From: Flavobacteriales bacterium
Lineage (GTDB): Bacteria > Bacteroidota > Bacteroidia > Flavobacteriales_D > Sanyastnellaceae
Assembly: GCA_029238785.1 (NCBI GenBank)
Contig: JAQWFN010000003.1
Coordinates: 1-64,000 of the forward strand
DNA length: 64,000 nucleotides
Direction of reading: 5' to 3'
In this document: one piece after another, positions 9,640 to 43,968 of the stretch
Numbering within the stretch: the first letter of the stretch is position 1
Layout: each line of letters begins with the position of its first letter
The notes under the pieces: model-generated
The model's input: only the letters and a program-made list of their open reading frames with translations
The model's database searches: none
Told to the model about the DNA's origin: nothing
Position numbers and translations under genes: made by a program

Positions 9640-9659
9640 GTCTGTCAATTTATCAGCGG

Positions 9660-9667
9660 CAAATGTA
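9660..9667 (-). promoter_or_regulatory. Candidate -7 element for the 9163-9639 gene
   Basis: On the minus strand this reads TACATTTG, an exact TAnnTTTG match, 20 bases upstream of the start at 9639. A matching -33 element is not obvious. Confidence 0.4.
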
Positions 9668-9822
9668 AGAAATTATCCTCCGCTTAATCGTTCCGCACAA
9701 GAACTTGACAAAGGCCTTGTAACAAGTTTCTGCCTTATTCGTATGTGAACTAGTAAGAAAAATTATTTTTTTACTGTTGCTATCTGTTTAACCTAAATTC
9801 TATCGAAAGCGTTTTTCAACTT

Positions 9823-11481: not shown

Positions 11482-12818
11482 AAAAGTACCTCATTATAAG
11501 TTTAAGCATCTTCTTCTTCACGAAGGGAGCTACAGCCCAAATCAACACGAATTACCTCTTTTCAGACGAAGCTCCTTCAATGTGGAACACCAACCCGGCT
11601 TCTTTGGGAAATGAGAAAGTATTTGTTGGACTACCCGTCTTGAGCGGTATCGACGCTAATGCCGTGCACAATGGCTTTACTTACGACGATGCCATTACCA
11701 ACGATCAAGTCAACATTGCTTCAACCATTGAGCAATTGCGCGATGAAAACGACATCATGTTCAACAGCTCATTTCAACTTTTGAACTTTGGCTTTCGCCT
11801 TGGTCAATGGCACTTCAGAGGCGGAGCACAACAGGTCATTAGCACACGCATTACTTACCCAAAGAGCTTTATGGAGTTGGCCTGGAAAGGAAACGGACAC
11901 CCAGACCTCATCGGAAGACGACTCGATTTCGGAGGGTTCGCAGTGAATGCAATGGCCTATACCGATTATTTTGCGGGATTCAGCAGGCAGCTCATGGACG
12001 AGCAGCTCACTGTTGGCGCCAACATCCATTACTTGCAAGGAGCAGATGTGGTATACACCGAACAAAGTTCATTTGGATTAACCACCGATGCTGACACCTA
12101 CGCCCTCACCGCAGATGGCGCTTTTATCTTGAGAACAACGGTTGACGAAGACGCACTAGACAGCATCTCTGCAGATCATTTCACACCCTTTAATGGCGCG
12201 AATTCTGGCTTTTCTTTCGACTTAGGGGCAAAATACCGCTTCTTAGAAAAATTCGAACTTCAAGCTTCGGCCATGAATGTTGGTGGGATCCGTTGGAATA
12301 GAAACGCTCAGTCTTACACCCTCGCCAATACATCATTTACCTACAATGGTGTGGATCTTGAGTCGCTTGTTGACAATCCAGACAGCACTACTTCGCAGTT
12401 AGAAGATGTGCTCGATTCTTTGGCCACCAGCTTTGAACCTGTAGAAGGTGTTGGAGCGTTTAATGCGCCTAGCAATGCCCGTTTTTACCTCGGATTTGGC
12501 TACGAAATCAATAAAAACAATCACCTCATGCTCACCGCGGCGCACTTGAGAAGCTTCAACAAAGGTTTTAACTCCGTTGCTGCCATGTATCGCCACCGAT
12601 TCGGAAGAATCCTTTGGGTTCGCACAGGTGCTCAACTCTTCCAGCTCGACCAATTCCTATGGCCTGTAGGACTCACCATCAACGCGGGTGCCGTTCAATT
12701 CGGCTTCGGTACAGACAACCTCATCGCGGCATTTGCCCCAACAAAAGCGGGTGTCTTCACCGGTCATTTTCAAATCGGACTGCGTTTTGGAAGAGATGGG
12801 AAGATTAAGAAGGAATGA
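11478..12818 (+). CDS. DUF5723-type outer-membrane protein
   Basis: A 446-residue exported protein with a signal peptide ending at about residue 20 (GATAQ). The mature start INTNYLFSDEAPSMWNTNPA and the later beta-strand-rich body with many aromatic-alternating segments match the DUF5723 family of Bacteroidota, predicted to be outer-membrane beta-barrels resembling PorV/FadL-type porins. The function of the family is not established. It overlaps the upstream lipoprotein gene by four bases. Downstream lies a REP-like intergenic block in place of a simple terminator. Confidence 0.75.
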   Translation: MKKYLIISLSIFFFTKGATAQINTNYLFSDEAPSMWNTNPASLGNEKVFVGLPVLSGIDANAVHNGFTYDDAITNDQVNIASTIEQLRDENDIMFNSSFQLLNFGFRLGQWHFRGGAQQVISTRITYPKSFMELAWKGNGHPDLIGRRLDFGGFAVNAMAYTDYFAGFSRQLMDEQLTVGANIHYLQGADVVYTEQSSFGLTTDADTYALTADGAFILRTTVDEDALDSISADHFTPFNGANSGFSFDLGAKYRFLEKFELQASAMNVGGIRWNRNAQSYTLANTSFTYNGVDLESLVDNPDSTTSQLEDVLDSLATSFEPVEGVGAFNAPSNARFYLGFGYEINKNNHLMLTAAHLRSFNKGFNSVAAMYRHRFGRILWVRTGAQLFQLDQFLWPVGLTINAGAVQFGFGTDNLIAAFAPTKAGVFTGHFQIGLRFGRDGKIKKE

Positions 12819-12820
12819 GG

Positions 12821-13012
12821 AATGTGTGAAATTTATTAATCACAACAGCACCTAAAAACCCAGATATCAACACCAGGTTTATGACCCCAGCGGGGTCACA
12901 TATAACTAGCCTTTGATGTCCAACATAAGGTTTCCGACCCCAGAGGGGTCGCATATTTATTTCAAACGGATATTAGAGGAGAATGCGGGAATGTGGCAAT
13001 TTATTAATCACA
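12821..13012. repeat. Intergenic block with two REP-like palindromes flanked by direct repeats
   Basis: Two related palindromes lie 39 bases apart: TGACCCCAGCGGGGTCA (12882-12898) and CGACCCCAGAGGGGTCG (12935-12951), each followed by CATAT-type sequence. The block is bounded by near-identical direct repeats, 24 bases at 12821-12844 and 23 bases at 12990-13012, both ending in AATTTATTAATCACA with different bases at three or four positions. GACCCC-type palindromes are common intergenic repeats in Bacteroidota. Between converging genes the hairpins may also act as terminators. Confidence 0.7.
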
Positions 13013-13018
13013 TTTCAA

Positions 13019-14308
13019 CTATGAGTTCATGATGTCCTCAATCTCCTCGGCCTCCAAAGGAATGTGTCCCATCAAATCTCGGTGTCCGTTTTCAAGAATC
13101 ACGATATCGTTTTCCAAACGAATGCCCAAATTCTCTTCTCTAATATAGATGCCAGGTTCAACAGTAAACACATTACCGGCTTGAATCGGTTCGTGCCACA
13201 AGCCAACGTCGTGCACATCCAAGCCTATGAAATGCGACGTTCCGTGCATGAAATACTTCTTGTATGCCGGCATCGCCTTCGATTGCTTTTCAACGTCATG
13301 CTTATCGAGCAGTCCAATGTTTAGCAGCTGCTCGGTCATCAATTCACCAACTTGCACGTGGTATTCAGCCAACATTACACCCGGTTTCAACAACTGAGTT
13401 GCTGATTTCATCACACTAAGCACCGCATTGTAAACTTGCTTTTGACGAGCGCTGAACTTCCCGTTTACAGGAACACATCTTGTCATGTCTGAGGCGTAAT
13501 TGCCATACTCCGCACCCACATCCATCAAAATAACATCGCCGTCTTTACACGTATCTTCATTTTCAATGTAATGAAGCACACATGCGTTAAAACCACTAGC
13601 AATAATGGGGGTGTAAGCAAAACCTCGAGAACCTCTGCTCAAAAACTCGTGCATGAATTCCGCTTCAATTTCATACTCCTTTACGCCGGGCTTCACCATT
13701 TTCAAAACGCGCTCAAAACCTGCCTTGGTGATATCACAAGCGTTCTGCATCTGCTCAATCTCTTCTGCATGCTTTACAGATCGAACTCGGTGCATGTGGG
13801 GGGCGCTTCTTTCAATAGACACATTTGGGTAAGTACTTCTAAACCATTTTCCAAAACGAATGTCGCGCGTTTCCACTTCAATCGACGCTCTAGTGTGTTC
13901 GTTGCTGTTGAGATAAACCCCTTGAGCTTCTGCAATCAAGGTTTTAAGAACTCGCTCAAAATCACTCAACCAGTAAATCGTTTTCACACCACTCAATGCC
14001 GTAGCTTGTTCTTTACTGAGCTTAGCGCCTTCCCAAATGGCAATTTCATCGTTCGTCTCTTTGAGAAACAACATCTCCTTGTGTGCAGCATTGCTTGCCC
14101 CAGGAAAAATCACCAAAATGCTTTCTTCTTGATCTACACCACTCAAGTGTAAAATATCTGTTGCTTGCTTAAATGGCAAGGTTCCATCTGCACTCGTAGG
14201 CATGATGTCGTTCGAGTTGAAAATGGCAAAGAAACCAGGTTTCAGCTCTTTTGAAAGTGCTTGACGATGTTGAATATATACCTCGGAAGAAAGTGGACGA
14301 TATCTCAT
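13019..14308 (-). CDS. pepP: Xaa-Pro aminopeptidase (aminopeptidase P)
   Basis: A 429-residue metallopeptidase of family M24B that releases the N-terminal residue next to proline. It has the N-terminal aminopeptidase-P domain (about 1-140) and the C-terminal pita-bread domain (about 165-425). The dinuclear metal ligands are all visible: D263 (DVGAEYG), D274 (SDMTR), H359 (HGTSHF), E384 (TVEPGIYI) and E399 (RLEND), with H366 in LDVHDVG. Length is normal. Probably monocistronic and cytoplasmic. Confidence 0.94.
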   Translation of the reverse strand: MRYRPLSSEVYIQHRQALSKELKPGFFAIFNSNDIMPTSADGTLPFKQATDILHLSGVDQEESILVIFPGASNAAHKEMLFLKETNDEIAIWEGAKLSKEQATALSGVKTIYWLSDFERVLKTLIAEAQGVYLNSNEHTRASIEVETRDIRFGKWFRSTYPNVSIERSAPHMHRVRSVKHAEEIEQMQNACDITKAGFERVLKMVKPGVKEYEIEAEFMHEFLSRGSRGFAYTPIIASGFNACVLHYIENEDTCKDGDVILMDVGAEYGNYASDMTRCVPVNGKFSARQKQVYNAVLSVMKSATQLLKPGVMLAEYHVQVGELMTEQLLNIGLLDKHDVEKQSKAMPAYKKYFMHGTSHFIGLDVHDVGLWHEPIQAGNVFTVEPGIYIREENLGIRLENDIVILENGHRDLMGHIPLEAEEIEDIMNS

Positions 14309-14394
14309 GCTTCAATTATTTTGAACGAAGGTAAGAAACGCCTCTTGGAAAGTGTAACTTTATCCGAAGCAGTTCTGTCAAAGAAAAGTGAATG

Positions 14395-14526
14395 TTAATG
14401 CGATTGTAGATCAAGACGTTTCCAGTATTCGGGATCTTGGGCCTTCATGCCATTAATAAAAAACCAACCGTGGCGCTGATTGAAAACGCGTTCTAATTCT
14501 CGAAGATGAGTAAAAATAGTATACAT
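14395..14526 (-). CDS. Possible 43-residue protein
   Basis: A short ORF in the gap between pepP and the gene starting at 14506. It starts with ATG inside the palindrome CATATG (14524-14529) and ends at the TAA at 14395-14397. The translation is MYTIFTHLRELERVFNQRHG, then WFFINGMKAQDPEYWKRLDL and QSH. The composition (aromatic and charged, an amphipathic first helix, WFFINGMKAQDPEYW) looks like a real small protein rather than noise. It overlaps the first codons of the gene on the opposite strand if that gene starts at 14506. No clear ribosome binding site. Confidence 0.45.
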   Translation of the reverse strand: MYTIFTHLRELERVFNQRHGWFFINGMKAQDPEYWKRLDLQSH

Positions 14527-15099
14527 ATGATAGGGTTTAATGCCATTCGGCTCAATGACTTACGCTGCTTCCCTAACTTATGTAGAAGAAAATCAACCTT
14601 TGTTTTTGTAGGGCTCTTCTTATCTTTCTTTTTTTTGGCCGATGATTGTCTTGCTCAGAAATACCTCAGCCTCAGGTCACAGCGCAAAGCAGAAAGAATC
14701 AATTTTAGCGTGGGCGATGAAATTTCCATCAAGATTGACGGAGAAAAAACCGTTTTTCAAGGGGAGATTACGGCCCTACGAGACAGCAGCATCGTTTTCA
14801 ATAAAACAGAACTACAACTAAACAGAATTGATGAAGTGATCGACTTTTCGAGCGGATCAGCTTTGAGAGCCGCAGGGAAAAGCCTGTGGGTGGCGGTGCC
14901 CATTACCTTCCTTTTTAACGGACTCAACCGCTGGATCAACACAAAAGAATCTCCTGTTATTGATAAGCCCACCCTCGAACTTGCAGCAGTATTTGCCGGA
15001 ACAGGAACTGCCCTCATGCTCGTTCCCCACAAACGCTACAAAACAAAAAAGAAGTGGCGACTATTGATTATCGACACCACATTTTATCCCTCCAACTAG
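14506..15099 (+). CDS. Exported hypothetical protein
   Basis: Up to 197 residues; the start may be the ATG at 14506 or 14527. A hydrophobic signal-like segment is at about residues 31-50 and ends in DDCLAQ, giving an unusually long N-region. The mature part has a short beta region (VGDEISIKIDGEKTVFQGEI) and a stretch with two weak hydrophobic helices (about 122-138 and 155-172), then a basic tail (HKRYKTKKKWR). I do not recognise a family. It may be a small envelope protein of the kind common in this phylum. Confidence 0.6.
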   Translation: MSKNSIHMIGFNAIRLNDLRCFPNLCRRKSTFVFVGLFLSFFFLADDCLAQKYLSLRSQRKAERINFSVGDEISIKIDGEKTVFQGEITALRDSSIVFNKTELQLNRIDEVIDFSSGSALRAAGKSLWVAVPITFLFNGLNRWINTKESPVIDKPTLELAAVFAGTGTALMLVPHKRYKTKKKWRLLIIDTTFYPSN

Positions 15100-32957: not shown

Positions 32958-33215
32958 TTACTTGTCGATAGAACCCACCACCCGTTTCATAAAGGCGTTC
33001 ATGGCCTCTTTTTTAGGTGTGCCATTAGCGATTTCTTTCTGTACTTCAAGTGCTCCATACATGTTGGAAAGCAACTCTCCGATGACATCAAGTTCTTCGT
33101 CTTTTAGCGACTCCAATTCAGTGAGGTGCTCGAGCACATCGATGGCTTCTACTAGGTAGTCCTCATCGGTTTTCTCAATGAATTCTTGCAGGTGTTTAAT
33201 TACTGGTAACCTCAT
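32958..33215 (-). CDS. Small helical protein of the thioredoxin block (DUF6952-like)
   Basis: An 85-residue acidic helical protein from the ATG at 33215 (MRLPVIKHLQEFIEK); the TTG further upstream is unlikely. It contains DEELDVIGELLSNMYGALEV and resembles what I recall as DUF6952, a Bacteroidota family found next to thioredoxin and peroxiredoxin; that name is from memory. It overlaps the thioredoxin gene by 20 bases. Probably in the same oxidative-stress transcript; role unknown. Confidence 0.75.
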   Translation of the reverse strand: MRLPVIKHLQEFIEKTDEDYLVEAIDVLEHLTELESLKDEELDVIGELLSNMYGALEVQKEIANGTPKKEAMNAFMKRVVGSIDK

Positions 33216-33510
33216 CAACAAATGATTTTAAGACTTCAGCCTTGTTGGTTTGAATTTGTTTCGCAAGCGCTCCGTTGCTGAATGCAGCGAAGGTTGGTAG
33301 GTTGTCAACGTTCGCTAACTGACGAGAGTTTGGAAATTTCTCTGCGTCAACAACAACGAAAACAACATCGCCGTGCTCACTGGCCATTTTCTTGAATTTC
33401 GGCTTCATAATTCTGCAGTTTCCACACCATCCGGCGCTGTACTGAACAATTACTTTTCCGTTTTCTTGAACCAACTGACTCAAATTGTCTTGATCTAGTT
33501 CTTGCAACAT
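33196..33510 (-). CDS. Thioredoxin-family protein with WCGNC site
   Basis: A 104-residue thioredoxin fold with the active site W28-C29-G30-N31-C32 and the cis-proline P72 (LPTF). The second position is Asn in place of the classical Pro, which tends to shift the redox potential and suggests a dedicated role. It lies 12 bases downstream of peroxiredoxin, so it is probably the reductant for that enzyme (inference). Cytoplasmic, as no signal peptide is present. Confidence 0.92.
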   Translation of the reverse strand: MLQELDQDNLSQLVQENGKVIVQYSAGWCGNCRIMKPKFKKMASEHGDVVFVVVDAEKFPNSRQLANVDNLPTFAAFSNGALAKQIQTNKAEVLKSFVDEVTSN

Positions 33511-33522
33511 AATTTCTGTTTT

Positions 33523-34158
33523 TTAGTGTGAAGCCAAGTAGCTCGCTACACCATCGCGGTTCGCAGACATAGCGTCTTTGCCTTCTTCCCAGTTTGCTGG
33601 ACAAACCTCACCGTGTGTTTGAACGTGAGTGTATGCATCAATCAAACGAAGAAATTCGTTTACGTTTCTTCCAAGAGGCATGTGGTTAATTCCTTCGTGG
33701 AATACGGTTCCTGTTTCATCAATCAAGTAAGTAGCACGATAAGTGACATAATCACCATGGATGATGTCTGCATTCAACTCCTCGTTGTACTCCACTGCGC
33801 TAACGTCAAGAATATTCAAAATCGACGCTAGGTTGCGGTTGCTATCTGCAATCAAGTTATAGGTAACACCTTCAATTCCACCGTTGTCTTTTGCCGTGTT
33901 CAACCAAGCGAAGTGTACTTCTGCTGTATCGCAAGATGCACCAATAACAATGGTGTTTCTTTTATCGAATTCACCCAAAGCTTCTTGGAATGCGTGAAGC
34001 TCAGTAGGACAAACAAAAGTGAAGTCTTTTGGGTACCAAAAAAGCAATACTTTCTTTTTGTTCTTTACTGCTTCTTCGAGAACGTTAATTTTAATGGTAT
34101 CTCCCATTTCATTCATGGCCGATACTTCCAAGTTAGGGAATTTCTTTCCTGTGAACAT
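33523..34158 (-). CDS. Typical 2-Cys peroxiredoxin (AhpC/Prx1 type)
   Basis: A 211-residue peroxidase that reduces hydrogen peroxide and organic hydroperoxides. The peroxidatic cysteine is C50 in DFTFVCPTE, and the resolving cysteine is C186 in GEVCPANW. R142 lies in the active-site region RATYLID. First gene of the peroxiredoxin-thioredoxin-helical protein unit, divergent from an OxyR-type regulator with about 110 bases between the two starts. Confidence 0.95.
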   Translation of the reverse strand: MFTGKKFPNLEVSAMNEMGDTIKINVLEEAVKNKKKVLLFWYPKDFTFVCPTELHAFQEALGEFDKRNTIVIGASCDTAEVHFAWLNTAKDNGGIEGVTYNLIADSNRNLASILNILDVSAVEYNEELNADIIHGDYVTYRATYLIDETGTVFHEGINHMPLGRNVNEFLRLIDAYTHVQTHGEVCPANWEEGKDAMSANRDGVASYLASH

Positions 34159-34198
34159 GTTCGTTGTTTTTTTGCGTGTTTAACTTACAATGATGACA

Positions 34199-34206
34199 CA
34201 AAATTA
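34199..34206 (-). promoter_or_regulatory. Candidate -7 element for the peroxiredoxin operon
   Basis: Reads TAATTTTG on the minus strand, an exact TAnnTTTG match, 40 bases upstream of the peroxiredoxin start. Confidence 0.4.
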
Positions 34207-34228
34207 CACGACTTGTTTCATAGAACCT

Positions 34229-34265
34229 AATTATACTATTTATACCTTTGTTAGATATTATCTAT
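34229..34265. promoter_or_regulatory. Candidate OxyR/LysR operator and -7 element
   Basis: Four half-sites at the OxyR spacing (ATAG-N7-CTAT-N7-ATAG-N7-CTAT): AATT at 34229, TTAT at 34240, TTAG at 34251 and CTAT at 34262, 11 of 16 bases matching. The right part contains the perfect palindrome AGATATTATCT (34253-34263). A TAnnTTTG element (TACCTTTG, 34243-34250) lies inside it, so binding would affect the regulator's own promoter. No footprint data; inferred from pattern. Confidence 0.4.
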
Positions 34266-34268
34266 GAG

Positions 34269-35207
34269 ATGAATCTAAACCAATTGAAATATGTTATGGC
34301 GGTGCATGAACACCGTCATTTTGGTAGGGCCGCTGAGCACTGTGATGTTACGCAGGCCACGCTTAGCGCAATGATCAAGAAGTTGGAAGAAGAGCTGGGG
34401 CTTGTTTTGTTTGACCGTGATAAGCAACCCACAGTAATTACAGAAGCTGGACTACAGGTGGTAAAAATTGCCAAAGACATGCTTGCCAAGCAACAAGAAC
34501 TGCTCGATTTGAGCAAAAACACGAGCACGAACTTAAAAGGAACATTCAAATTGGGCATTATTCCCACAGTGGCGAACGCTCTCCTTCCGCTGATTTTGCC
34601 TTCGCTGCTCGAACAGCACCCTGAACTTGAACTCACCATTGCGGAAATCACGACGGAAGAAATCATCCACCGACTAAAAGAAGACCGCATCGACCTTGGA
34701 ATATTGGCCACACCGCTTGAAGAAGAGGAATTGGAGGAAAACATTCTCTACTATGAAACCATGATGGTTTACGGAGTGAGTGATCCAAAGAAAAAATTCA
34801 TCGCCCCAAAAGATGTTCAGGATGAAAAAGTTTGGCTTTTAGAAGAAGGAAATTGTTTCAGAAACCAAAGCATGACCATTTGCGACATCCAAGAAAAGAG
34901 CAACTACCCCAACAAGCTTCACTTTGAAGGAAGCTCCTTTGATACCCTTCTCAATCTCAGTGATCATTTTGGGGGCATCACCCTGGTGCCCGAGCTCTAC
35001 TACAATTTAATGTCTGAAAGCAAGCAAGAGCGAACCCGAATGTTCAAAGCGCCCTATCCTGTTCGAGAGATTAGTGCAGTTTATTATCGGCCCTTTGCAA
35101 AAAAGAACAGCATTGACCTTTTGTCTGAACACATCAAAAAGCTCATTACGCCGCGATTAATAAGCACTACCCTACCTAAAAAGGACTTGTCTATCATTGG
35201 AATTTGA
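34269..35207 (+). CDS. oxyR: OxyR-type hydrogen peroxide sensor (LysR family)
   Basis: A 312-residue LysR regulator from the ATG at 34269 (MNLNQLKYVMAVHEHRHFG). N-terminal winged helix (about 1-60), then the effector domain. The diagnostic feature is the pair C196 and C205 in GNCFRNQSMTICD, matching the C-x8-C of E. coli OxyR C199 and C208, which form a disulfide on oxidation by peroxide. It is divergent from a peroxiredoxin/thioredoxin unit, the expected target. A candidate operator lies at 34229-34265. Confidence 0.93.
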   Translation: MNLNQLKYVMAVHEHRHFGRAAEHCDVTQATLSAMIKKLEEELGLVLFDRDKQPTVITEAGLQVVKIAKDMLAKQQELLDLSKNTSTNLKGTFKLGIIPTVANALLPLILPSLLEQHPELELTIAEITTEEIIHRLKEDRIDLGILATPLEEEELEENILYYETMMVYGVSDPKKKFIAPKDVQDEKVWLLEEGNCFRNQSMTICDIQEKSNYPNKLHFEGSSFDTLLNLSDHFGGITLVPELYYNLMSESKQERTRMFKAPYPVREISAVYYRPFAKKNSIDLLSEHIKKLITPRLISTTLPKKDLSIIGI

Positions 35208-35275: not shown

Positions 35276-35971
35276 ATGAAGACCAGCGAAACTGCCATAT
35301 TGTTTTTCAGCCGAAGCGTAGGCGCGGAAGCTAAAGCCAAGTTGTGGATTAAATCCAAGAAATCTGCGCTCATCAACCGCAGCATTTCTAGAACGCTCAT
35401 CAAGCACACCAAGTCTGTTCTTGACGGCAGCGGCTTGACGGTTTTTCATTTTGATGAGCACCAACAAATTGGTGATTCTTTTGGCGAACGCTTTGCCCAT
35501 GCCTTCCAAGCAATTTTTGACTTGGGTTACAGCAATGTAATCGCACTTGGTAACGACACGCCAAACTTGGAACACTTGTCTTGGAAAGCACTTCAAAACG
35601 AGCTCCAGAAAAACAAAACGATTCTTGGTCCGAACGAAAGAGGTGGCGCTTATCTCATTGGTCTAAACAAAGCCCTTTTCGATTTCAAAACCTTTTGTTC
35701 CTTGCCTTGGCAATGCGAACAGCTCTTTGAGACCCTTCAAGGCTATTTTGGAGCAGACATCCACGTGCTCAGCGAACAGATCGACCTCAACACCAAACAA
35801 GATTTATTGGCTGTACTCAGCCGTTTGAAGTCGGGTATTGGCTTGTTGCACACCTTGCGCTTGGCCCTAGGATTGGTGCTTCATCACGGTCAAAACACCC
35901 AAGACCTTTCGCTTTCATTGAGTCTTCCAAAAAGCGACCATCACCGTGGTCCGCCCATTGTTATTTGCTAA
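35276..35971 (+). CDS. DUF2064 glycosyltransferase-A-like protein
   Basis: A 231-residue protein of the DUF2064 family (GT-A fold; some homologues are annotated as arsenosugar glycosyltransferases). Recognisable: GDSFGERFAHAFQ, NVIALGNDTPNL and ILGPNERGGAYLIGL, and the PWQ near position 143. The C-terminal extension of about 45 residues (RLALGLVLHHGQNTQDLS...KSDHHRGPP) is His-rich and ends in Cys, and I do not know it from the family. It precedes the TonB/ABC/radical SAM operon by 80 bases and may belong to it. The reaction it catalyses here is unknown. Confidence 0.78.
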   Translation: MKTSETAILFFSRSVGAEAKAKLWIKSKKSALINRSISRTLIKHTKSVLDGSGLTVFHFDEHQQIGDSFGERFAHAFQAIFDLGYSNVIALGNDTPNLEHLSWKALQNELQKNKTILGPNERGGAYLIGLNKALFDFKTFCSLPWQCEQLFETLQGYFGADIHVLSEQIDLNTKQDLLAVLSRLKSGIGLLHTLRLALGLVLHHGQNTQDLSLSLSLPKSDHHRGPPIVIC

Positions 35972-36051: not shown

Positions 36052-39042
36052 ATGAAACGCATTCTTTTTGCATTTCTCGCGCTTATTGCTGCGAATTTTT
36101 TGAGCGCTCAGGCTTCTTTAGATATCGTCTTGCTCGACCAAAACAAAAAAGAAATTCCCTTCCAAGGAATTCAAGTGAGCAACACGGCCATTGGATACCA
36201 AAAGCAAGTTGCCACCAACGAAAACGGTAAAGTTCAGTTATACGGACTCTCCACTTCTGGTAAATACAGCATTGAAGTATTGGAGAGTGCATTTTATCAC
36301 CCCTTAACACAAGAGAACATTGTATTGATTTCTGGAAAAGCCACCTCTGTTACCCTCACTTTGACAGAAAAAACCCAGGCTTTGGATGTGGCCACTGTTT
36401 CGGGCGATAATTATGTGAGCATCAACGCTGTTAACGCTGAAGTTGCTTCGAGTTTAGACGCCAGAGAAATCAACACCCTTCCTGTTGAAGGGCGAGACAT
36501 CACCCGTGTTTTATACCGCTTGCCCAACATTACGCAAGCCACTGGTTTTTATCCTGAAGCCCCAAACATTGCCATCAACGGAGCAAATTCCTTGTATACC
36601 AATTATCAAATCGATGGTATGGACAACAACGAGAACTTTCTTGGTGGTCAGCGTTTTGCCATGCCCATTGGTTTCACCCAAAGCATCACAGCTTTAACCA
36701 ACAACTTCAGTGCAGAACACGGATTAAGCTCCAACGGCATCATCAACATCACCACAAAATCTGGAACCAACGAAACTGCGGGTGAAGTGTTTTACATGAC
36801 GCGCCCCGGTGCAGTTATTGATTCGCCCAGTGAATTTGCCTTGCGTGATTTGTCTGGAAACCAAGTGAAAGACGGTTTTCAGAGACACCAAGTTGGTTTT
36901 GGATTGGGAGGCGCAATCACCCAGAATAAAACATTTTACTACCTCAATGTAGAACACACCTTAGACATCAAAGACAACCTCCTGAACGTACCACAATTGG
37001 GCATTAACGAAACTGTTCAAGGGAGAAATACCTTCACATACTTGTCTGGAAAGCTCGATCACAACTGGGGAGAACGCTTTCAAACCTCATTGCGCGTGAA
37101 CACGGGTTTGAGCAATATTGAACGTCAAGGTGGTGGTTTAGAAGGTGGAGTGAACTTCCCTTCGGCGGGAAACACCCAAGCGCGAAATGCTATGAACATC
37201 GCCCTGAAAAATACGGTGCGAAGAACCAACTTCATTTACGAAGGAAATTTTCTTTACGGCCGCTTTCGCTGGAACTACGCCACGCCAGAAGATGAAGGGA
37301 GTCCGAACGTTACCGTACTCGACCCACAAGGCTTGACAATGGCGGTACTTGGTCATCCAGGCTATGTCTTTGACGTTACCGAAAACACCCAAGTGATTCA
37401 ACAAAAGCTCACTTTCTTGCGCGACAAGCACACCATTAAAGCTGGTGCACAATACAAGCGATCGAACTTTGCGCTATTTGGTGGAGGAAACCCCAACGGA
37501 AGTTATACCGTGCAATTGAATGAAGATCAACTTGCCGCTTTACAAACCAACAACCCGGGAATTGGCTTAGTGCCGCAAGATCTACCCGGAGACGTGAGCG
37601 TTTTGAATTATGGCGTAGAACTTCACCCAAACGCTTTTGAAGCCAATCAGAACATCTTCAGTATTTATATCGAAGACCAATGGGCCATTGCTCCGCGATT
37701 GAACGCGAATATTGGCTTGCGTTATGATTATGACGACTTGTCGAAGGGTGGAAACGACACCGGAGACCTCAACAACATTGCACCTCGTTTGAGCTTAAAT
37801 TATACCATCAACGAGCAAAGCAGTGTGCGCCTTGGCTATGGCATGTATTACGACAAAATCCTCTATGCTTTGTATAGCGATGCCTTGCAATTCAACTCCA
37901 ACAGCGAGGGCTACAAAGCGCAATTACAAGCTTTGATTGACCAAGGAGTTTTGCCTGAAGGAAGTAACATTGAGGCCCTCACCAACGAAGGAAACCTCAC
38001 GGCAAACGATCCAAATGCGGCCTACTTACAAGGTCCGCTTGCCGCCGATCTTCAAAATCAAAGAAATGAGGTGTTTCAAAACGAACTGCGCATCCTCAAC
38101 CCCAATGGTTATGACAACCCTTACAGCCATCAATTCATGGTGGGCTACCAGCGAAAAATAGATGAGGAATTATCCTTCTATGTTGATGTGATGCACAACC
38201 GTTCGTTCAACTTGTTCCGACTCCGCAACCTGAACGCACCTGCCGCTTATCAGATCGATCCAGACAATGTGGTGGTGCAATCTCAAGCAGATGCTGATGC
38301 GAGTAGACCCGTTCCCATCTTCACAGATGAGCAAGGAAACTATGCTTTGATCAATGGCGACACCTTGAGAAACGTTTCGAGAAATGTGGTGATGACCGAA
38401 AGCGAGGGGAGATCTAATTACTATGCTTTGAACTTCACCCTTCAGAAAGAGCGCGGCGACGATAACTATGCTTTCCGCTTTATGTACACCTTGTCTTACT
38501 TGGAAAACAACACCGAAGACATCAACTTCAGGGCCATGGACGGGAATGATTTCGAAGCAGAATGGGGTCCGTCTATTAACGACCGTACCCACCTCATCAA
38601 CAGCATCTTCACCTACTACCCAACGAAAAACTTAAGCCTTAATCTAAGCGCATTGTTGCAGAGCGGACAGCCCATCAACCGCATTCCTGATGCCGGCATT
38701 TACGGCACAACAGATTTGAACGGCGATGGTAGAGCTTTTGGTGATGCTTACGTTGGCAACAGCGACCGTTCTCCGGGTGAAGAGCGCAACAGCGATCGTT
38801 TACCTTGGTCGAACACCTTTGACTTGAGCATGTTCTACACCATTCCTTTCGGTGAGCAATCCAAAATGGAGATTGGTGCGTACGTATTCAACATCTTCAA
38901 TGCAGAGAACTTCAGTGGTTATTCGAACAACGCCACTCAGAGCAACCAAATTCAAGTTGGTCCAGCAAGCTCGGGTGTTTTTGTACAACGAAATGCAGCT
39001 CCTCCTCGTCAATTTCAATTCTCTGCCAGATTTTTGTTTTAA
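36052..39042 (+). CDS. TonB-dependent outer-membrane receptor
   Basis: A 996-residue receptor. Signal peptide (ends near residue 20, LSAQ), an N-terminal carboxypeptidase-like regulatory domain (about 21-110), a plug (about 120-270, with LPVEGRDITRVLYRLPN and IAINGANSLYTNYQIDGMDN) and a 22-strand-type barrel ending in the aromatic residues FSARFLF. It resembles Oar-like receptors rather than SusC. No SusD is nearby. Two bases separate it from the solute-binding lipoprotein gene, so it probably imports the substrate of that ABC transporter across the outer membrane. Confidence 0.9.
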   Translation: MKRILFAFLALIAANFLSAQASLDIVLLDQNKKEIPFQGIQVSNTAIGYQKQVATNENGKVQLYGLSTSGKYSIEVLESAFYHPLTQENIVLISGKATSVTLTLTEKTQALDVATVSGDNYVSINAVNAEVASSLDAREINTLPVEGRDITRVLYRLPNITQATGFYPEAPNIAINGANSLYTNYQIDGMDNNENFLGGQRFAMPIGFTQSITALTNNFSAEHGLSSNGIINITTKSGTNETAGEVFYMTRPGAVIDSPSEFALRDLSGNQVKDGFQRHQVGFGLGGAITQNKTFYYLNVEHTLDIKDNLLNVPQLGINETVQGRNTFTYLSGKLDHNWGERFQTSLRVNTGLSNIERQGGGLEGGVNFPSAGNTQARNAMNIALKNTVRRTNFIYEGNFLYGRFRWNYATPEDEGSPNVTVLDPQGLTMAVLGHPGYVFDVTENTQVIQQKLTFLRDKHTIKAGAQYKRSNFALFGGGNPNGSYTVQLNEDQLAALQTNNPGIGLVPQDLPGDVSVLNYGVELHPNAFEANQNIFSIYIEDQWAIAPRLNANIGLRYDYDDLSKGGNDTGDLNNIAPRLSLNYTINEQSSVRLGYGMYYDKILYALYSDALQFNSNSEGYKAQLQALIDQGVLPEGSNIEALTNEGNLTANDPNAAYLQGPLAADLQNQRNEVFQNELRILNPNGYDNPYSHQFMVGYQRKIDEELSFYVDVMHNRSFNLFRLRNLNAPAAYQIDPDNVVVQSQADADASRPVPIFTDEQGNYALINGDTLRNVSRNVVMTESEGRSNYYALNFTLQKERGDDNYAFRFMYTLSYLENNTEDINFRAMDGNDFEAEWGPSINDRTHLINSIFTYYPTKNLSLNLSALLQSGQPINRIPDAGIYGTTDLNGDGRAFGDAYVGNSDRSPGEERNSDRLPWSNTFDLSMFYTIPFGEQSKMEIGAYVFNIFNAENFSGYSNNATQSNQIQVGPASSGVFVQRNAAPPRQFQFSARFLF

Positions 39043-39044
39043 GC

Positions 39045-40259
39045 ATGAAAAAACTCCGCTATCTCATTTTACTTGTTCTTTTAAGCGCTTGCGGAACAAG
39101 TCCCGAAAGCGAACCTTCATCTGATGCTGCTTCCATGACTTGGGAAGAGCAGCTGGAGGCAGCGCGTGGCCAAGAAATCACCTTGATGATGTGGCCTGGT
39201 GATCCGCTCATCAACGCTTACATGAAAAGCTACGTGAAGCCAGAAGTGAAACAGCGTTTCGACATTGACTTGAACATTGTTCCAGGGCAAGGCAATCAAA
39301 TTGTGAGCAGCTTGATGACCGAGCTAGAAGCTGGAAAGGAAAGCAGTGAGGTGGACATGGTTTGGATCAATGGGGAAACCTTTTACCAGCTCCGCCAGAT
39401 CAAGGCTTTGCACGGTCCGTTTGCCAAATCGCTGCCCAACGCTGAATTTATCAATTGGGAGAGCGCATTTATCGGGACCGATTTTCAGCAGCCTGTCAAT
39501 GGTTTTGAGTGTCCGTGGGGCAACGTTCAAATGACCCTAATTTACGACAGCCTGAAGGTGAGCACTCCGCCCATGACTTTGGATGAACTTGGACTTTGGG
39601 TGAAGGCCAATCCGGGTAAATTCACCTTGGGGAACAACTTCACCGGTATGACCCTTTTGAAGGCATGGTTGATTGATTTTGCTGGAGGAGGAAAGTCATT
39701 AAACGGAGATTTTGACGAAGCCAAATACCTCGAAGCCAGCACAAAGCTCTGGGAGTTCATCAATACCCATAAGGCCTATTTTTGGAATGAAGGGAAAAGT
39801 TTTCCAAAAGACTTGGCCGAGCAGCACCGCTTGTTTGCCAATGGAGAATTGGCCTTCACCATGAGCAATAACGACAGTGAGGTGGACAACAAGATTGCTC
39901 AAGGACTTTTCCCAGAGAGCGCTCGTGCCTATGTTCCCGATTACGGCAGCATTCAAAACTCGCACTACATGGGCATTACATCGCTCAGTGAAAACAAGAA
40001 GGCTGTTGAGGTGGTGATCAACTTTCTGATTTCACCGGAAGCGCAATTGAAAAAAATGGACCCTCGGGTTTGGGGAGACGGAACAGTTCTGGATGTGAAC
40101 AAACTCAGCGTGGAATGGCAGCAAAAGTTTCAAAATGTTCCCGGGCGAGTGCATGCTCCTGAGCGTTCAGAAATAGCAGCAAAAGCGCTGATGGAACCGG
40201 CCCCAGAATACATGATGCGTTTGTTTGAAGACTTCAGATTAAAGGTAATTGAAGGGTGA
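39045..40259 (+). CDS. YnjB-like solute-binding lipoprotein of an ABC importer
   Basis: A 404-residue lipoprotein with lipobox LLSAC (Cys16). The mature part has the features of COG4134/YnjB: EITLMMWPGDPLINAYM, DLNIVPGQGNQIVSSL, VDMVWINGETFYQLR, FTMSNNDSEVDNK and ISPEAQLKKMDP. YnjB belongs to the solute-binding fold that also includes thiamine- and iron-binding proteins; its ligand is unproven. The TGA overlaps the GTG start of the first permease by four bases. Confidence 0.88.
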   Translation: MKKLRYLILLVLLSACGTSPESEPSSDAASMTWEEQLEAARGQEITLMMWPGDPLINAYMKSYVKPEVKQRFDIDLNIVPGQGNQIVSSLMTELEAGKESSEVDMVWINGETFYQLRQIKALHGPFAKSLPNAEFINWESAFIGTDFQQPVNGFECPWGNVQMTLIYDSLKVSTPPMTLDELGLWVKANPGKFTLGNNFTGMTLLKAWLIDFAGGGKSLNGDFDEAKYLEASTKLWEFINTHKAYFWNEGKSFPKDLAEQHRLFANGELAFTMSNNDSEVDNKIAQGLFPESARAYVPDYGSIQNSHYMGITSLSENKKAVEVVINFLISPEAQLKKMDPRVWGDGTVLDVNKLSVEWQQKFQNVPGRVHAPERSEIAAKALMEPAPEYMMRLFEDFRLKVIEG

Positions 40260-41104
40260 TTCTTGGGCGAAAAAATATCGTTCTCACCGCATTTGTGCTC
40301 ATTTGTTTGCTCCCTTTGCTCATGGGCTTTGTCTATTCTTTGGGCTACAGCTTAGGAGTTTTTGGATTGATGAATGAGGGCTTTACACTCGACCATTGGC
40401 TGCGTTTGTTTGCGTCAAAAGATGCCTGGAGCAGCTTGATTTACACCTTCCTGCTCACCCTGGTTTCAATCACACTCGTGATTGTTTTCGCGGGGCTGCT
40501 TTCTCGCGCATTTGTGTCAAAGCCTGAGCGCTCTTTCACCCAAAAACTACTTTTACTACCGCTGCTTTTTGCACCTGTTGCCGCTGGTTTTGCGTGGTAC
40601 TACGTGCTTAGTCCCGCCGGAATCTTAAGCCGCATCAGTCATGCTTTAGGCCTCACAGAAGACATCACCTCCTTCCCCAGGATGGTGAATGACGACTGGA
40701 GCATCGGTATTTTGCTTGTTCATGTCTTTTTGGTCTTGCCCATTTTTACATTTCTGTTCACCGCTCAGGCCAAAAGCATGAACTTGTTGGAGATGAACAA
40801 GCTCGCTACAAGTTTAGGAAGCTCGCGCCTTCAGTGTTTCACTAAGCTTTGGTTGCCCGCTTTGGTGAAGCGCTTTAAATTGCTCATTGTGCTCTACGCC
40901 GTGTTCTTTATGGGGACGTATGAAGTGCCTTTGATTTTAGGACAGAGTTCGCCCCGTGTTTTGACCGTTTTTATTAGTGAAAAGCTCACCATGTTTAGCT
41001 TAGACGACATTCCTTTGGGTCATTGCATGGCGGTTTTTTACAGTGCCTGCATCTTTATTGTGCTCAGCTTTTTCCTTTATCGCCAAAAAAGCACCGCCTC
41101 ATGA
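40256..41104 (+). CDS. ABC importer permease (YnjC N-terminal half-like)
   Basis: A 282-residue inner-membrane permease with six predicted helices, starting at a GTG that overlaps the end of the lipoprotein gene. The cytoplasmic EAA-type loop is near MNLLEMNKLATSLGSSRLQC. In E. coli, YnjC is a single protein of about 500 residues containing two permease halves; here the first half is encoded by its own gene. Overlaps the second permease by four bases (ATGA). Confidence 0.88.
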   Translation: MILGRKNIVLTAFVLICLLPLLMGFVYSLGYSLGVFGLMNEGFTLDHWLRLFASKDAWSSLIYTFLLTLVSITLVIVFAGLLSRAFVSKPERSFTQKLLLLPLLFAPVAAGFAWYYVLSPAGILSRISHALGLTEDITSFPRMVNDDWSIGILLVHVFLVLPIFTFLFTAQAKSMNLLEMNKLATSLGSSRLQCFTKLWLPALVKRFKLLIVLYAVFFMGTYEVPLILGQSSPRVLTVFISEKLTMFSLDDIPLGHCMAVFYSACIFIVLSFFLYRQKSTAS

Positions 41105-41925
41105 TGAAACTAGGAAAAAGTACCCTCGCGCTCTTTGTGCTTTTGCCGCTCCTCTGCGTTATTTATCTCAGTGTGGTGAGCGCATGGACCTACCCGCTTT
41201 TGTTCGATGCTGAATTCAGCTTAAAGCATTACCTCGTGCTCTTTTCTGGTGAAAGTGAACTCGCTTGGAGCTTTGTTCAAAGTGTTCTCCTCAGCCTCGT
41301 GATGGCCACTTTAGGACTCCTATTCGGCTTTTTCGTTGCAAAAGAAATTGCCTTTTCAAAGTACGGATCTCGTCTTTTAAAACTGGCCTTTTACCCTTAT
41401 ATGATTGCACCCGTAGTTTTGGGTTCGATGCTGCAGTTTTATTTTGTTCGTTGGGGTTTGAGCGCCTCTTTTTTCGGGGTGATGCTGGCTCAGTCTTTAT
41501 TCATTCTGCCCTATGCCGTGCTGATCATGAGTAGTTTTTGGTCGGAAAACATCTTACAGCTTTTCAAACTTGGACAGAGTCTTGGTGGCGATGCTAAAAC
41601 CGTCAAGCGCACCTTGCTCTACCCTTTAGCCAAACCATGGATGCTCCTCACCTTTGCACAGTGCTTTTTGATCTCGTGGTTTGAATATGGTATAACTCAA
41701 GTGCTCGGCATTGGAAAAGTCAAAACCCTCAGCGTAATCAGCATGCAGTTCTTAAAAGAGGCCAATCCGCACCCCGCAGCAGTGGCCGCTGTGCTCATGA
41801 TTGTGCCCGTACTGCTTACTTTCATTATTTTGTACCGCTGGCAAAACAAAGCACAAGGAAATTGGTCGGCCATCGCCCCCATCAACAATAGTTTAAGCCA
41901 TCACCCTAAAAAAGTAGGCGCATGA
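41101..41925 (+). CDS. ABC importer permease (YnjC C-terminal half-like)
   Basis: A 274-residue permease with six predicted helices; the ATG at 41101 is in the overlap with the previous gene, and the frame upstream of it is only a shadow of that gene. EAA-type loop: ILQLFKLGQSLGGDAKTVKR. It would pair with the permease encoded upstream as a heterodimer. Overlaps the ATPase gene by four bases. Confidence 0.88.
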   Translation: MMKLGKSTLALFVLLPLLCVIYLSVVSAWTYPLLFDAEFSLKHYLVLFSGESELAWSFVQSVLLSLVMATLGLLFGFFVAKEIAFSKYGSRLLKLAFYPYMIAPVVLGSMLQFYFVRWGLSASFFGVMLAQSLFILPYAVLIMSSFWSENILQLFKLGQSLGGDAKTVKRTLLYPLAKPWMLLTFAQCFLISWFEYGITQVLGIGKVKTLSVISMQFLKEANPHPAAVAAVLMIVPVLLTFIILYRWQNKAQGNWSAIAPINNSLSHHPKKVGA

Positions 41926-42665
41926 TAGAGGTTCGTCAATGGCAAAAAAAATATGCTGAGCTTGAAGTGTTGAAATCGCTCAACTTCCAAATGGAGGAAG
42001 GCAAAACCCTGGCGGTTTTGGGTGAAAGCGGTTGCGGGAAAAGTACCCTGCTAAAAACCTTGGCCGGCTTTGACGTACCAGACGGTGGAAGTTTTTTATT
42101 CAATGGGCAAAATATCAATGCACTGCCCGTTCATCAGCGAGGCATCGTTTACATGAGCCAAGAAGCCCTTTTGTTTCCCCACCTCAATGTGTTTGATAAC
42201 TTGGCTTACGGACTAAATATCCGCAAGGTATCGAAAGCAACACAGCGAGAAAAAGTAATGGTGCTAGCTCAAGAGTTGGGCATTGAAGACCAGCTTGAAA
42301 AAATGCCTTCGGAATTGTCTGGCGGACAAAAACAGCGGGTAAATTTTGGAAGGGCTTTGATTACTCAACCCAGAATGTTGCTTTTAGACGAACCCTTTGC
42401 CAGTTTAGACAGCGGCACCCGAATGAAAATGCAAAAGCTCTTCATTGAAAGCGCCGAAAAATGGAAACTGAGCACAATTTTCGTCACCCACGACATCAAA
42501 GAAGCCTTGATTATGGGCTCGCTTTGGGGAACGATGAGCAATGGAAGCCTGGAGCTCTTTGAAAGTAAGCAGGCATTTATCGCAGCAGAACAATCTGGCG
42601 CAAAAGAAGAAATGGCCTTTTGGCAAACTATTCAAAGTGAAAATGGAAGAAAAGATGATGAATAA
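41922..42665 (+). CDS. ABC importer ATPase (YnjD-like)
   Basis: A 247-residue ATP-binding protein. Walker A GESGCGKST (near residue 34), Q-loop MSQEALLF, signature LSGGQKQR, Walker B LLLDEPFAS and the switch histidine THDIKEA. It resembles YnjD and energises the two preceding permeases. It overlaps the radical SAM gene by about 11 bases, so expression of the transporter and the enzyme is coupled. Confidence 0.93.
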   Translation: MIEVRQWQKKYAELEVLKSLNFQMEEGKTLAVLGESGCGKSTLLKTLAGFDVPDGGSFLFNGQNINALPVHQRGIVYMSQEALLFPHLNVFDNLAYGLNIRKVSKATQREKVMVLAQELGIEDQLEKMPSELSGGQKQRVNFGRALITQPRMLLLDEPFASLDSGTRMKMQKLFIESAEKWKLSTIFVTHDIKEALIMGSLWGTMSNGSLELFESKQAFIAAEQSGAKEEMAFWQTIQSENGRKDDE

Positions 42666-43584
42666 GTTTGATCATATCGAATCGGTGTATTGGGTGTTTA
42701 CCCAATTGTGTAACGATAAGTGCGACCACTGCTACAACCTCAGTGGTCCGCAAGGAAGCAGAATGAGCGAAGAGGAATGTTTGGCCATCATCGAAAACCT
42801 TCCCCGCAAAGTCGACCGCATTATTTTGAGTGGTGGTGAACCCATCGCTGAGAAGAAAAAACTCTATTTGATTTTAGACCATTTAAAAGAAAAATACGGC
42901 AGCGAAACACAAATCATGCTGCAAACCAACGGCGATTTGCTCACCGAAGAAATACTCGACATCCTCATTGAGAAAGGGGTTACTCGTTTTGACATTGCCA
43001 GTATTGATCGCTACCACAAAAAGGCCGGTGGCCGACTCATGGAATTGGCTGATTTGTTTGATTCGCGCGGTGTGAATGGTGATGAAAAAGACCCTTTGGT
43101 GAAGAAAGACAACTACCTTCATGCTTATCCTTTGAGTTGGGGATATTGGGGGGCGAGTGAAGAGATATGGCTCGGTGGAAACTGGCCTAGAGGAAGGGCT
43201 TTTCAGAAGAACATCTGGCTCAAAAACCCCGATCATAATTTTTGCTCCATCCTCTCGGGTGGGATTGGTTTTTTGAGTGGTGGCGACGAAATTCCACAAG
43301 AGATCTCCATTCAGCTTTGGAAAATCAACCCTTGTTGCCCGGGCACCAAAGAAGCCCTTGGCGATGCGCGTAGCGAAAAGGTAGCCGAGGTGCTCGCGCG
43401 CTTGGCCGGCAATCCCGTTTTCGAAAAAATCAACTTGGGCGATCCCATCAGCATGGGGGAAAGCATTGGGGTGAGCACAGAACACGCCAAAAAACGCTGT
43501 GGTGAATTGAAAAGCGTGTGCCTCTGGTGCGATGAATTTTTCGACAAGCATTTCGACATCAAAACACTTGCTGCCAAACAATAA
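42655..43584 (+). CDS. Radical SAM protein with extra cysteine motifs
   Basis: About 309 residues from the ATG at 42655 (an ATG at 42643 is also possible). The iron-sulfur motif C19-x3-C23-x2-C26 (CNDKCDHCYN) and the SAM-binding GGEP (60-63) are standard. Six further cysteines in the C-terminal half (FCSILS, NPCCPG, KRCGELKSVCLWCDEFF) could hold an auxiliary iron-sulfur cluster, as in SPASM/twitch proteins. The conserved-looking SIDRYHKKAGG and GGNWPRGRA segments are unusual. Substrate unknown; the gene overlaps the ABC ATPase gene. Confidence 0.85.
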   Translation: MMNKFDHIESVYWVFTQLCNDKCDHCYNLSGPQGSRMSEEECLAIIENLPRKVDRIILSGGEPIAEKKKLYLILDHLKEKYGSETQIMLQTNGDLLTEEILDILIEKGVTRFDIASIDRYHKKAGGRLMELADLFDSRGVNGDEKDPLVKKDNYLHAYPLSWGYWGASEEIWLGGNWPRGRAFQKNIWLKNPDHNFCSILSGGIGFLSGGDEIPQEISIQLWKINPCCPGTKEALGDARSEKVAEVLARLAGNPVFEKINLGDPISMGESIGVSTEHAKKRCGELKSVCLWCDEFFDKHFDIKTLAAKQ

Positions 43585-43608: not shown

Positions 43609-43968
43609 ATGCTTTACTTCATCTACAACGCAGACGCCGGCAAATGGAACGGATACATGGACATGCTCCACAAAATCGTTTCGCCCAAAACCTATCCTTG
43701 TCACTTGTGCGACATCACCTACGGCGTGTTTAAAATTCGACCAGAGTGGGACGCCTTCTTAAAGTCACAAAGCGATGAGCTCGTTTTCCTGCACCGCGAT
43801 GAATGGCAAAAAGATGCCGCATTTGTGGAAGAACAACTGCCTGCAATTTTCGAGGTGAGGGAAGGAAAAAGCAGCGTGGCCTTGTCTGCTCAAGACATGA
43901 GCGAGATGGATTTGGCTGAGCTCATGGCTTGGGTTGAAGGTAGGCGAAAAAGCAATGAAGCGCGCTGA
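43609..43968 (+). CDS. Small CxxC protein of the transport operon
   Basis: A 119-residue soluble protein with FIYNADAGKWNGYMDMLHKIV near the N-terminus and a YPCHLCDITYG site (cysteines at about 28 and 31). Homologues are, as far as I recall, sometimes annotated as GTPase, but no nucleotide-binding motif is present and I do not use that name. The CxxC suggests a redox or metal site. It follows the radical SAM gene by 24 bases and closes the TonB/ABC operon. Function unknown. Confidence 0.72.
   Translation: MLYFIYNADAGKWNGYMDMLHKIVSPKTYPCHLCDITYGVFKIRPEWDAFLKSQSDELVFLHRDEWQKDAAFVEEQLPAIFEVREGKSSVALSAQDMSEMDLAELMAWVEGRRKSNEAR

Follow-up and report, generated by a model that had tools for sequence, protein, structure and literature searches.

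Genes at the locus

We analyzed a stretch of 64,000 nucleotides from a Flavobacteriales bacterium of the Sanyastnellaceae (assembly GCA_029238785.1, contig JAQWFN010000003.1, positions 1 to 64,000 of the forward strand), hereafter the window, and in particular a gene within it that encodes a radical S-adenosylmethionine (radical SAM) enzyme of 309 amino acids, here called RSAM. A first-pass annotation of this DNA, made from the sequence alone, had proposed an open reading frame at this position, and we find it open from an ATG start to a TAA stop. RSAM is part of a same-strand operon encoding, in order, a DUF2064 protein, a TonB-dependent receptor, a binding protein, two ATP-binding cassette (ABC) permeases, an ABC ATPase, RSAM, and a small protein with a CHLC (CxxC) motif (Table 1). 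From the DUF2064 gene to RSAM the gaps are 80, 2, -4, -13, -4 and -11 bases, and 24 bases separate RSAM from the CHLC gene; the -13 becomes -4 with the start of permease 2 that we set (ATG at 41101, a 4-base overlap with permease 1), and our searches used the frame from 41092.

Table 1. Features of the RSAM operon and the genes adjoining it (positions in the window; scores in bits, with family cut-off where given)
Feature	Position	Strand	Basis or remark
DUF2064 protein, divergent TIGR04282 relative	35276..35971	+	PF09837 56.8 vs 25.8
TonB-dependent outer-membrane receptor	36052..39042	+	PF25183 188; PF07715 plug 24.4 vs 23.9
Periplasmic binding protein, YnjB family	39045..40259	+	NF008633 367 vs 203; lipoprotein-type Cys16
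ABC permease 1	40256..41104	+	weak molybdate/sulfate-type permease matches, all under cut-off
ABC permease 2	41101..41925	+	weak PhnV/PotC-type permease matches, all under cut-off
ABC ATPase	41922..42665	+	PF00005 121; overlaps RSAM start by 11 bases
RSAM, radical SAM enzyme, 309 aa	42655..43584	+	PF04055 62 vs 29.5
Small CHLC (CxxC) protein, 119 aa, loosely associated	43609..43968	+	without Pfam/NCBIfam match
Thioredoxin	33196..33510	-	just upstream of DUF2064 gene
AhpC-type peroxiredoxin	33523..34158	-	just upstream of DUF2064 gene
OxyR-like LysR regulator	34248..35207	+	197, under OxyR cut-off 329

The DUF2064 protein falls below the cut-off of TIGR04282 (63.4 bits against 134), which NCBI names "arsenosugar biosynthesis glycosyltransferase", and the host genome encodes a full member of this family outside the window (201 bits). 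The binding protein matches NF008633, the model of the YnjB family, and its Cys16 is conserved at the 95% level or above across 65 aligned sequences; a sequence search of the PDB with this protein returned only two antibody chains (E 0.8-1.0).

Five C-terminal cysteines are a family trait of RSAM

RSAM contains ten cysteines, at residues 19, 23, 26, 42, 197, 227, 228, 282, 289 and 292. The core features described in the first-pass annotation are present, i.e., the C-x3-C-x2-C motif at C19/C23/C26 and GGEP at residues 60-63, and there are exactly six further cysteines in the C-terminal half, located in FC(197)SILS, NPC(227)C(228)PG and C(282)GELKSVC(289)LWC(292). Comparison of 89 homologues demonstrated that the C-x3-C-x2-C motif is kept in 88, with the remaining homologue truncated, that C197, C227 and C228 are cysteine in all 89, and that C289 and C292 are cysteine in 88, the exception being L077, which has a C-terminus unlike the others. 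C282 is cysteine in only 18 of the 89. The result is the same in a non-redundant set of 78 representatives with less than 95% identity (C197, C227 and C228 in 78; C289 and C292 in 77; C282 in 18). C42, which had been missing from the earlier list of cysteines, is cysteine in 83 of 89 homologues and 72 of 78 representatives. The annotation had stated that a lack of conservation in homologues would refute its reading of these cysteines; that refutation fails for five of them, which are a trait of the RSAM family, and holds for C282, which is not.

RSAM belongs to no curated subgroup and has a twitch-like predicted fold

PF04055 over its cut-off and an intact C-x3-C-x2-C motif place RSAM in the radical SAM superfamily, as the annotation had it. 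It fits no named subgroup, as our NCBIfam profile search gave nothing near a cut-off. Among the 25 matches listed of 51, the best scored 42 bits against a cut-off of 500, all cut-offs were at least 126 bits, and all matches ended by residue 129, so that the C-terminal half is covered by no NCBIfam model among the matches listed. When 52 aligned RSAM members were searched, the same families recurred (best E 1.6e-13; scores and ranges for this set come from its first member only). None of the individual families tested includes RSAM: ArsS (TIGR04167, 23.3 bits against 300, with DUF3641 giving no match), YydG/EpeE (TIGR04078, 30.1 against 300), viperin (NF038283, 40.1 against 180) and MoaA (TIGR02666, 33.8 against 284). 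The PADLOC viperin model pVip gave 44 bits over residues 11-128 only, a profile comparison with ArsS confined the similarity to 72 core columns, and a PDB sequence search matched RSAM in its core only. The names NirJ, tungsten maturase and viperin, which head the match lists, were dropped as candidates, since these matches cover only the first ~130 residues.

SPASM domains have a seven-cysteine pattern that holds two auxiliary clusters. The SPASM-type NCBIfam models listed match the core of RSAM alone, ending by residue 129, and RSAM has only five conserved C-terminal cysteines, too few to complete the SPASM pattern; four of the five are candidate ligands and can, judging by their conservation, serve one auxiliary cluster. 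The cysteine spacing is thus unlike SPASM, as the annotation had noted, and the layout is twitch-like instead. An AlphaFold model built with 52 sequences (mean predicted local distance difference test score 88.0, predicted template modeling score 0.90, with a weak stretch at residues 173-176) resembles EpeE along RSAM residues 4-309 (Z 18.2, root-mean-square deviation 3.5, 254 residues aligned) and BtrN along residues 2-293 (Z 16.0, root-mean-square deviation 3.5, 217 residues aligned), with 18-19% identity in both structural alignments. SpeY (Z 12.6, residues 1-287) and MoaA (Z 12.4, residues 2-284) follow, and viperins (about Z 15), SkfB, SuiB and anSME are also among the matches, a list from which a family's absence does not exclude it. 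BtrN and MoaA are twitch enzymes, as SpeY is titled in its structure entry, and the match of the predicted model to these three and to EpeE is what a twitch-type fold predicts. Most of the structural matches of RSAM carry one or two auxiliary clusters, viperin none. Structure prediction, a check that the annotation had suggested, therefore likens RSAM to radical SAM enzymes with auxiliary clusters such as EpeE and BtrN, and EpeE has two clusters in all, according to a review (PMC8326336). We conclude that RSAM is a conserved family without an NCBIfam subgroup and with a predicted twitch-like C-terminal domain.

The invariant CC pair of RSAM (C227/C228) aligns with a PCC motif of EpeE only in a stretch of insignificant score (-3.8 bits, chain positions 244-251). 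The observed residue ranges suggest an offset of 25 in the numbering of the EpeE chain; if this holds, the second cysteine of PCC would be Cys223, the proposed hydrogen donor (PMC8326336).

The partner of RSAM is the upstream importer

Our sample of loci comprises the best 80 of 130 RSAM loci, from named genomes whose titles place them in Bacteroidota, Chlorobiota, Ignavibacteriota, Acidobacteriota and one Gammaproteobacterium; labels of metagenome-assembled genomes such as Thalassovita (L014) and Armatimonadetes (L072) may be wrong bins, and six loci are from the host's family (L013, L016, L029, L031, L040 and L042). A complete ABC importer (binding protein, both permeases and ATPase) precedes RSAM on the same strand in 64 of the 80, joined by a TonB receptor in 48. 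An upstream ATPase on the same strand was found in 69 loci, and in 60 of them its stop codon is positioned anywhere from 17 bases inside RSAM to 170 bases ahead of it. A distant RSAM relative (126 bits, in two genomes) heads a run of enzyme, binding protein, long permease and ATPase, and the presence of an importer beside this relative too argues for an association of the enzyme with its importer that reaches far across the family. With L097-L099 added, i.e., in 83 loci, some shortened by contig ends, genes near RSAM include the ATPase in 71, the binding protein in 65 and the receptor in 54.

The first-pass annotation had described the neighbor of RSAM as a CxxC protein and no typical peptide substrate. 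The CHLC protein is indeed there, and it is not the natural partner of RSAM: it was dropped in this role because it occurs near RSAM in just 12 of the 83 loci and, among relatives of the host, in 3 of 7 with RSAM and also in 6 without. The natural partner of RSAM is the upstream TonB/ABC importer. We saw nothing around RSAM that points to a peptide substrate, and no recurrent small peptide gene was present among neighbor clusters of frames of at least 70 codons.

Two variations of this arrangement were seen. In L017, a short frame between the TonB receptor and RSAM (6736-6969) resembles, by eye, the last part of an ABC ATPase, which would fit a loss of the importer at this locus. In L022, L024 and L027, RSAM is followed on the same strand by another ABC ATPase-like gene, a larger one.

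RSAM and ArsS exclude each other in the family of the host

Searching 100 relatives of the host, we found TIGR04282 over its cut-off in 48, ArsS in 36 and RSAM in 7, counting only the strong RSAM matches (E <1e-150) of 11; the other four were weak (1e-8 to 1e-4) and looked unrelated. No relative carried both RSAM and ArsS over its cut-off. Of the 61 genomes of the host's family, 21 have TIGR04282 over its cut-off; 14 of these carry ArsS, 6 carry RSAM, none carries both, and one (G052) has ArsS in pieces. The two-by-two counts of TIGR04282 against "ArsS or RSAM" are 20/2/1/38; outside the pattern are G044, with ArsS, and G025, with RSAM and a TIGR04282 fragment (106 bits). With the marginal counts as they are in this family, zero overlap of ArsS and RSAM has a chance of about 1.3e-4, uncorrected for descent. 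Fragmented ArsS genes (G052 and G095) were not counted as ArsS; that of G052 (contig C2, 26233-27119) has several stops, representing either a decaying gene or assembly errors.

Where its surroundings were read, TIGR04282 lies in a run of rhodanese, TIGR04282 and purine nucleoside phosphorylase (PNP), with DUF547 before the run in 5 of 7 loci (L146, L147, L148, L149 and L151; not L145 and L150). The order in G012 is AhpD, ArsS, rhodanese, TIGR04282, PNP. In G031, from the same genus, the rhodanese-TIGR04282-PNP run has the same flanks by eye, AhpD and ArsS are missing, and an RSAM operon is located elsewhere in the genome. In the host itself, the run is divided between the ends of two contigs (L131 and L132). 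These ends (of C100 and C48) carry one whole and one partial TIGR04282 gene with a longest identical stretch of 51 bases, perhaps because the assembly contains a tandem copy or variation between strains.

In a tree of RSAM, some forks of which are poorly supported, six of the copies from the host's family, all in genomes without ArsS over its cut-off, fall into two separated groups, one near Fulvivirga and one near Saprospiraceae/Chitinophagales, which suggests that RSAM was acquired more than once in this family. In a sample of 395 genomes of the phylum, ArsS was found in 155, TIGR04282 in 230 and a close RSAM in 7, and all seven of the latter have TIGR04282 and none has ArsS. For a wider view, 50 RSAM genomes were picked by hand from the 80 loci, leaving out the host's family and many near-duplicates (e.g., further Hymenobacter); TIGR04282 is over its cut-off in 46 of these, versus 230 of 395 in the phylum sample. 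The link of RSAM with ArsS and TIGR04282 is an enrichment, strong in one family, and no law. A rule that RSAM genomes lack ArsM was rejected: ArsM is missing in 6 of 7 RSAM genomes of the host's family, and the wider set, where 28 of 50 have an ArsM-like match, breaks it.

Other genes near RSAM

Among the 83 loci, the neighbor families GA5 and GA6 occur in 24 each, DUF2064 in 21, a nucleoside hydrolase with a kinase in 6, ArsM-like genes in 4, SemiSWEET in 3, and ArsS with AhpD in 2. PNP is clear in 3, with the copy in L092 on the other strand; a fourth match (L085, 39.5 bits at 6 kb) was left uncounted. The nucleoside hydrolase lies inside the run (PF01156, 99 bits against 34), as does a protein resembling methylthioribose kinase (TIGR01767, 108 bits against a cut-off of 275). 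Searching the 100 relatives for this kinase found it in two only, neither with RSAM or ArsS: G074, where DUF2064, an ABC importer, the nucleoside hydrolase and the kinase lie together, and G081, where DUF2064, a receptor, the kinase and the nucleoside hydrolase do. The predicted fold of GA6 is of the ThuA/class I amidotransferase type, with many entries within 2 Z of each other, and SemiSWEET copies were over cut-off for PF03083 (33.5 against 23.7) and PF04193 in the two scanned; in L028 the order on one strand is RSAM, SemiSWEET, PNP.

Several loci also contain arsenic-related genes. L070 and L072 share a same-strand run of ATPase, RSAM, GA5, GA6, AhpD, another gene and ArsS, in that order. 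In L018 an ArsM-like gene directly precedes RSAM and overlaps its start; in L076 such a gene lies behind GA6, and in L025 and L037 ArsM-like genes lie 2-6 kb from RSAM on the other strand. L025 carries an ACR3 arsenite exporter (456 bits) together with its ArsM-like gene (13217-14934, minus strand), and L076 carries two ArsM-like genes with, by eye, an ArsR regulator and an aquaporin (9258-12970, plus strand). In G377 a TIGR04283 glycosyltransferase lies two genes upstream of RSAM, with another radical SAM protein before RSAM.

Three further gene sets were noted. In the window, the thioredoxin, peroxiredoxin and LysR regulator genes (33196-35207) form a peroxide-response-like set adjoining the operon. 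L129 contains a second radical SAM protein beside RSAM (2128-3687, minus strand), nearest to TrsS (87 bits, under the cut-off), with tetraether lipid synthase models also near. In the RSAM-free loci L116 and L117, a divergent DUF2064 gene is followed by a SusC-type receptor and SusD (by Pfam, in L117), and both loci also contain two genes with weak likeness, one to sodium/solute symporters and the other to phosphodiesterases.

A possible role in salvage for an arsenosugar-type pathway

Our preferred reading, to which we give a probability of roughly 40%, is that RSAM serves an arsenosugar-type pathway by remodeling a sugar- or nucleoside-like molecule that the cell imports. It builds on what we observe, i.e., the operon and its conservation, the neighboring genes, the exclusion of ArsS in the host's family, the five cysteines, and on the predicted fold; from these we infer a substrate that is the imported molecule and resembles ribose, an involvement of arsenic, and the possible chemistry. 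The TonB receptor and ABC importer would bring in a small molecule, most likely sugar-, riboside- or nucleoside-like, on which RSAM would act, and the product would feed the rhodanese, TIGR04282 transferase and PNP, i.e., the genes that ArsS would feed in close relatives. The operon would then represent an import or salvage branch of the pathway, and ArsM with ArsS its de novo branch. PNP, or the hydrolase plus the kinase, would convert a 5'-substituted adenosine to ribose 1-phosphate, the two being equated on the basis of known methylthioadenosine routes. Because hydrolase and kinase sit with an importer or receptor where RSAM and ArsS are absent, the imported molecule probably already contains ribose, and we therefore prefer a salvage role to that of a plain ArsS substitute.

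The weakest step is the chemistry, where we hypothesize by analogy an epimerase-like, redox-neutral reaction, with the invariant CC pair, which may parallel the PCC of EpeE, as the best clue. C197, one of C227/C228, C289 and C292 would hold an auxiliary [4Fe-4S] cluster, the 5'-deoxyadenosyl radical would abstract a hydrogen from the sugar, and the other cysteine of the CC pair would return one, as proposed for EpeE Cys223, for a net epimerization or other redox-neutral remodeling.

A number of observations weigh against this reading. RSAM is present without an importer nearby in L036, L039, L045 and L077. ArsS is over its cut-off in 15 of the 50 RSAM genomes outside the host's family, L070 and L072 hold both genes in one same-strand run, and an ArsM-like match (1e-20 or better) is present in 28 of the 50, over cut-off in 20. 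In the phylum sample, both ArsS and a close RSAM are missing from at least 68 of the 230 genomes with TIGR04282, and none of these genome counts is independent of descent. "Arsenosugar" is NCBI's name for the neighbor families. The mature YnjB-type binding protein has no cysteine conserved at the 95% level in the 65 aligned sequences, and so no visible thiol site for trivalent arsenic. The parallel with EpeE Cys223 combines an insignificant stretch of alignment with an inferred numbering offset. Finally, in L120 and L121 a divergent DUF2064 gene, near ArsS or alone, lies beside a binding protein of another family, so that ArsS too may have import partners. These loci (L120, 3427-5112; L121, 648-2270; both minus strand) encode a family 5 binding protein (PF00496, 256 bits, in L120; by eye in L121); in L120 AhpD and ArsS follow.

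The exclusion of ArsS in the host's family and the swap between G012 and G031 would also be expected if RSAM were a functional stand-in for ArsS, the enzyme that attaches an adenosyl group to arsenic when arsenosugars are made (reviewed in PMC12159101). RSAM would then couple the 5'-deoxyadenosyl group to an imported methylated arsenical (e.g., dimethylarsinate), and PNP, or a nucleoside hydrolase plus kinase, would remove adenine in a later step. The common rhodanese-TIGR04282-PNP run, the ArsM-like genes near RSAM in L018, L025, L037 and L076, whose genomes lack ArsS over its cut-off, the ACR3 exporter in L025 and the similar C ... C ... CxxC ending of ArsS all speak for this role. We nevertheless regard it as rather doubtful, given the shared run in L070 and L072, the restriction of profile similarity to the 72 core columns, and the importer or receptor with hydrolase and kinase in genomes without RSAM or ArsS, where the ribose seems to be present on import already. 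A strict replacement of ArsS by RSAM was demoted to this rival because of the 15 of 50 genomes with both and the joint runs.

It is also possible, although we consider it unlikely, that arsenic plays no part, and that RSAM acts on a common imported sugar or vitamin-like compound while PNP, hydrolase and kinase recycle 5'-deoxyadenosine. The TIGR04282 genomes with neither ArsS nor a close RSAM, the ThuA-like and SemiSWEET neighbors, and the methylthioribose-kinase-like protein, which suits deoxyribose recycling, fit this explanation. It accounts poorly for hydrolase and kinase beside an importer or receptor where RSAM and ArsS are absent, for ArsS, ArsM, AhpD and TIGR04283 recurring beside RSAM, and for the swap within one genus. 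A further alternative, in which RSAM is a QueL-like lyase in the salvage of queuine or another modified purine, involves the same kind of gene set (transporter, nucleoside hydrolase and lyase; PMC11130926); we hold it to be very improbable, with no queuosine gene recognized among the neighbors read, in which no search aimed at such genes was made. The idea that RSAM modifies peptides or proteins, as a SPASM- or EpeE-type enzyme, has hardly any credence left, in spite of EpeE, SkfB, SuiB and anSME being among the closest folds, given the tight importer link, the 30 bits against 300 for TIGR04078, and the lack of a recurrent small peptide gene in neighbor clusters (frames under 70 codons left out).

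Regardless of substrate, RSAM is a conserved family over several phyla, unassigned by the curated models searched and tied to a specific importer, a tie that makes its substrate findable via the binding protein. In the portions of the open-access literature available, we recognized nothing on the RSAM family or on arsenosugar import. If the salvage reading for an arsenosugar-type pathway is true, the question of why bacteria make arsenosugars becomes testable, since a cell that imports the compound must use it. A broader proposal, which we consider unlikely, is that Bacteroidota and relatives combine high-affinity uptake with radical-based salvage of organoarsenicals, arsenosugar- or arsenonucleoside-like, as a route interchangeable with de novo synthesis by ArsM and ArsS; organoarsenicals would in that case be valued, cofactor-like metabolites and no mere detoxification waste.

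Comparison with known systems

By fold, RSAM is like the radical SAM peptide epimerase EpeE (YydG), which also has a PCC motif, and the twitch dehydrogenase BtrN (Z 16.0), with the likeness running along the chain. It is unlike both in its low sequence identity, and in having an importer operon with no peptide partner seen. By gene content, RSAM occupies the same place as ArsS (TIGR04167, DUF3641) in the host's family; the two share the C ... C ... CxxC tail and, in two loci, the same run, whereas ArsS has a single cysteine where RSAM has the invariant CC pair, and a YnjB-type importer beside ArsS was seen in L070 and L072 only. The importer itself resembles E. coli YnjBCD, in that its binding protein is over the NF008633 cut-off, and unlike YnjBCD it comes with a TonB receptor and with RSAM; the portions of the open-access literature available contained nothing pointing to a known YnjBCD substrate.

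The closest parallel in logic is the QueK/QueL system of Clostridioides difficile, in which QueL is a radical SAM enzyme. Like the RSAM operon as we read it, QueK/QueL follows a salvage logic, feeding a pathway that others run de novo. Its transporter types, neighbors and pathway are different, and the likeness meant here is one of gene set. Queuine salvage there combines import by transporters with a nucleoside hydrolase and a lyase, as described previously (PMC11130926), and it is in this sense, by analogy, that RSAM would work most like a salvage enzyme.

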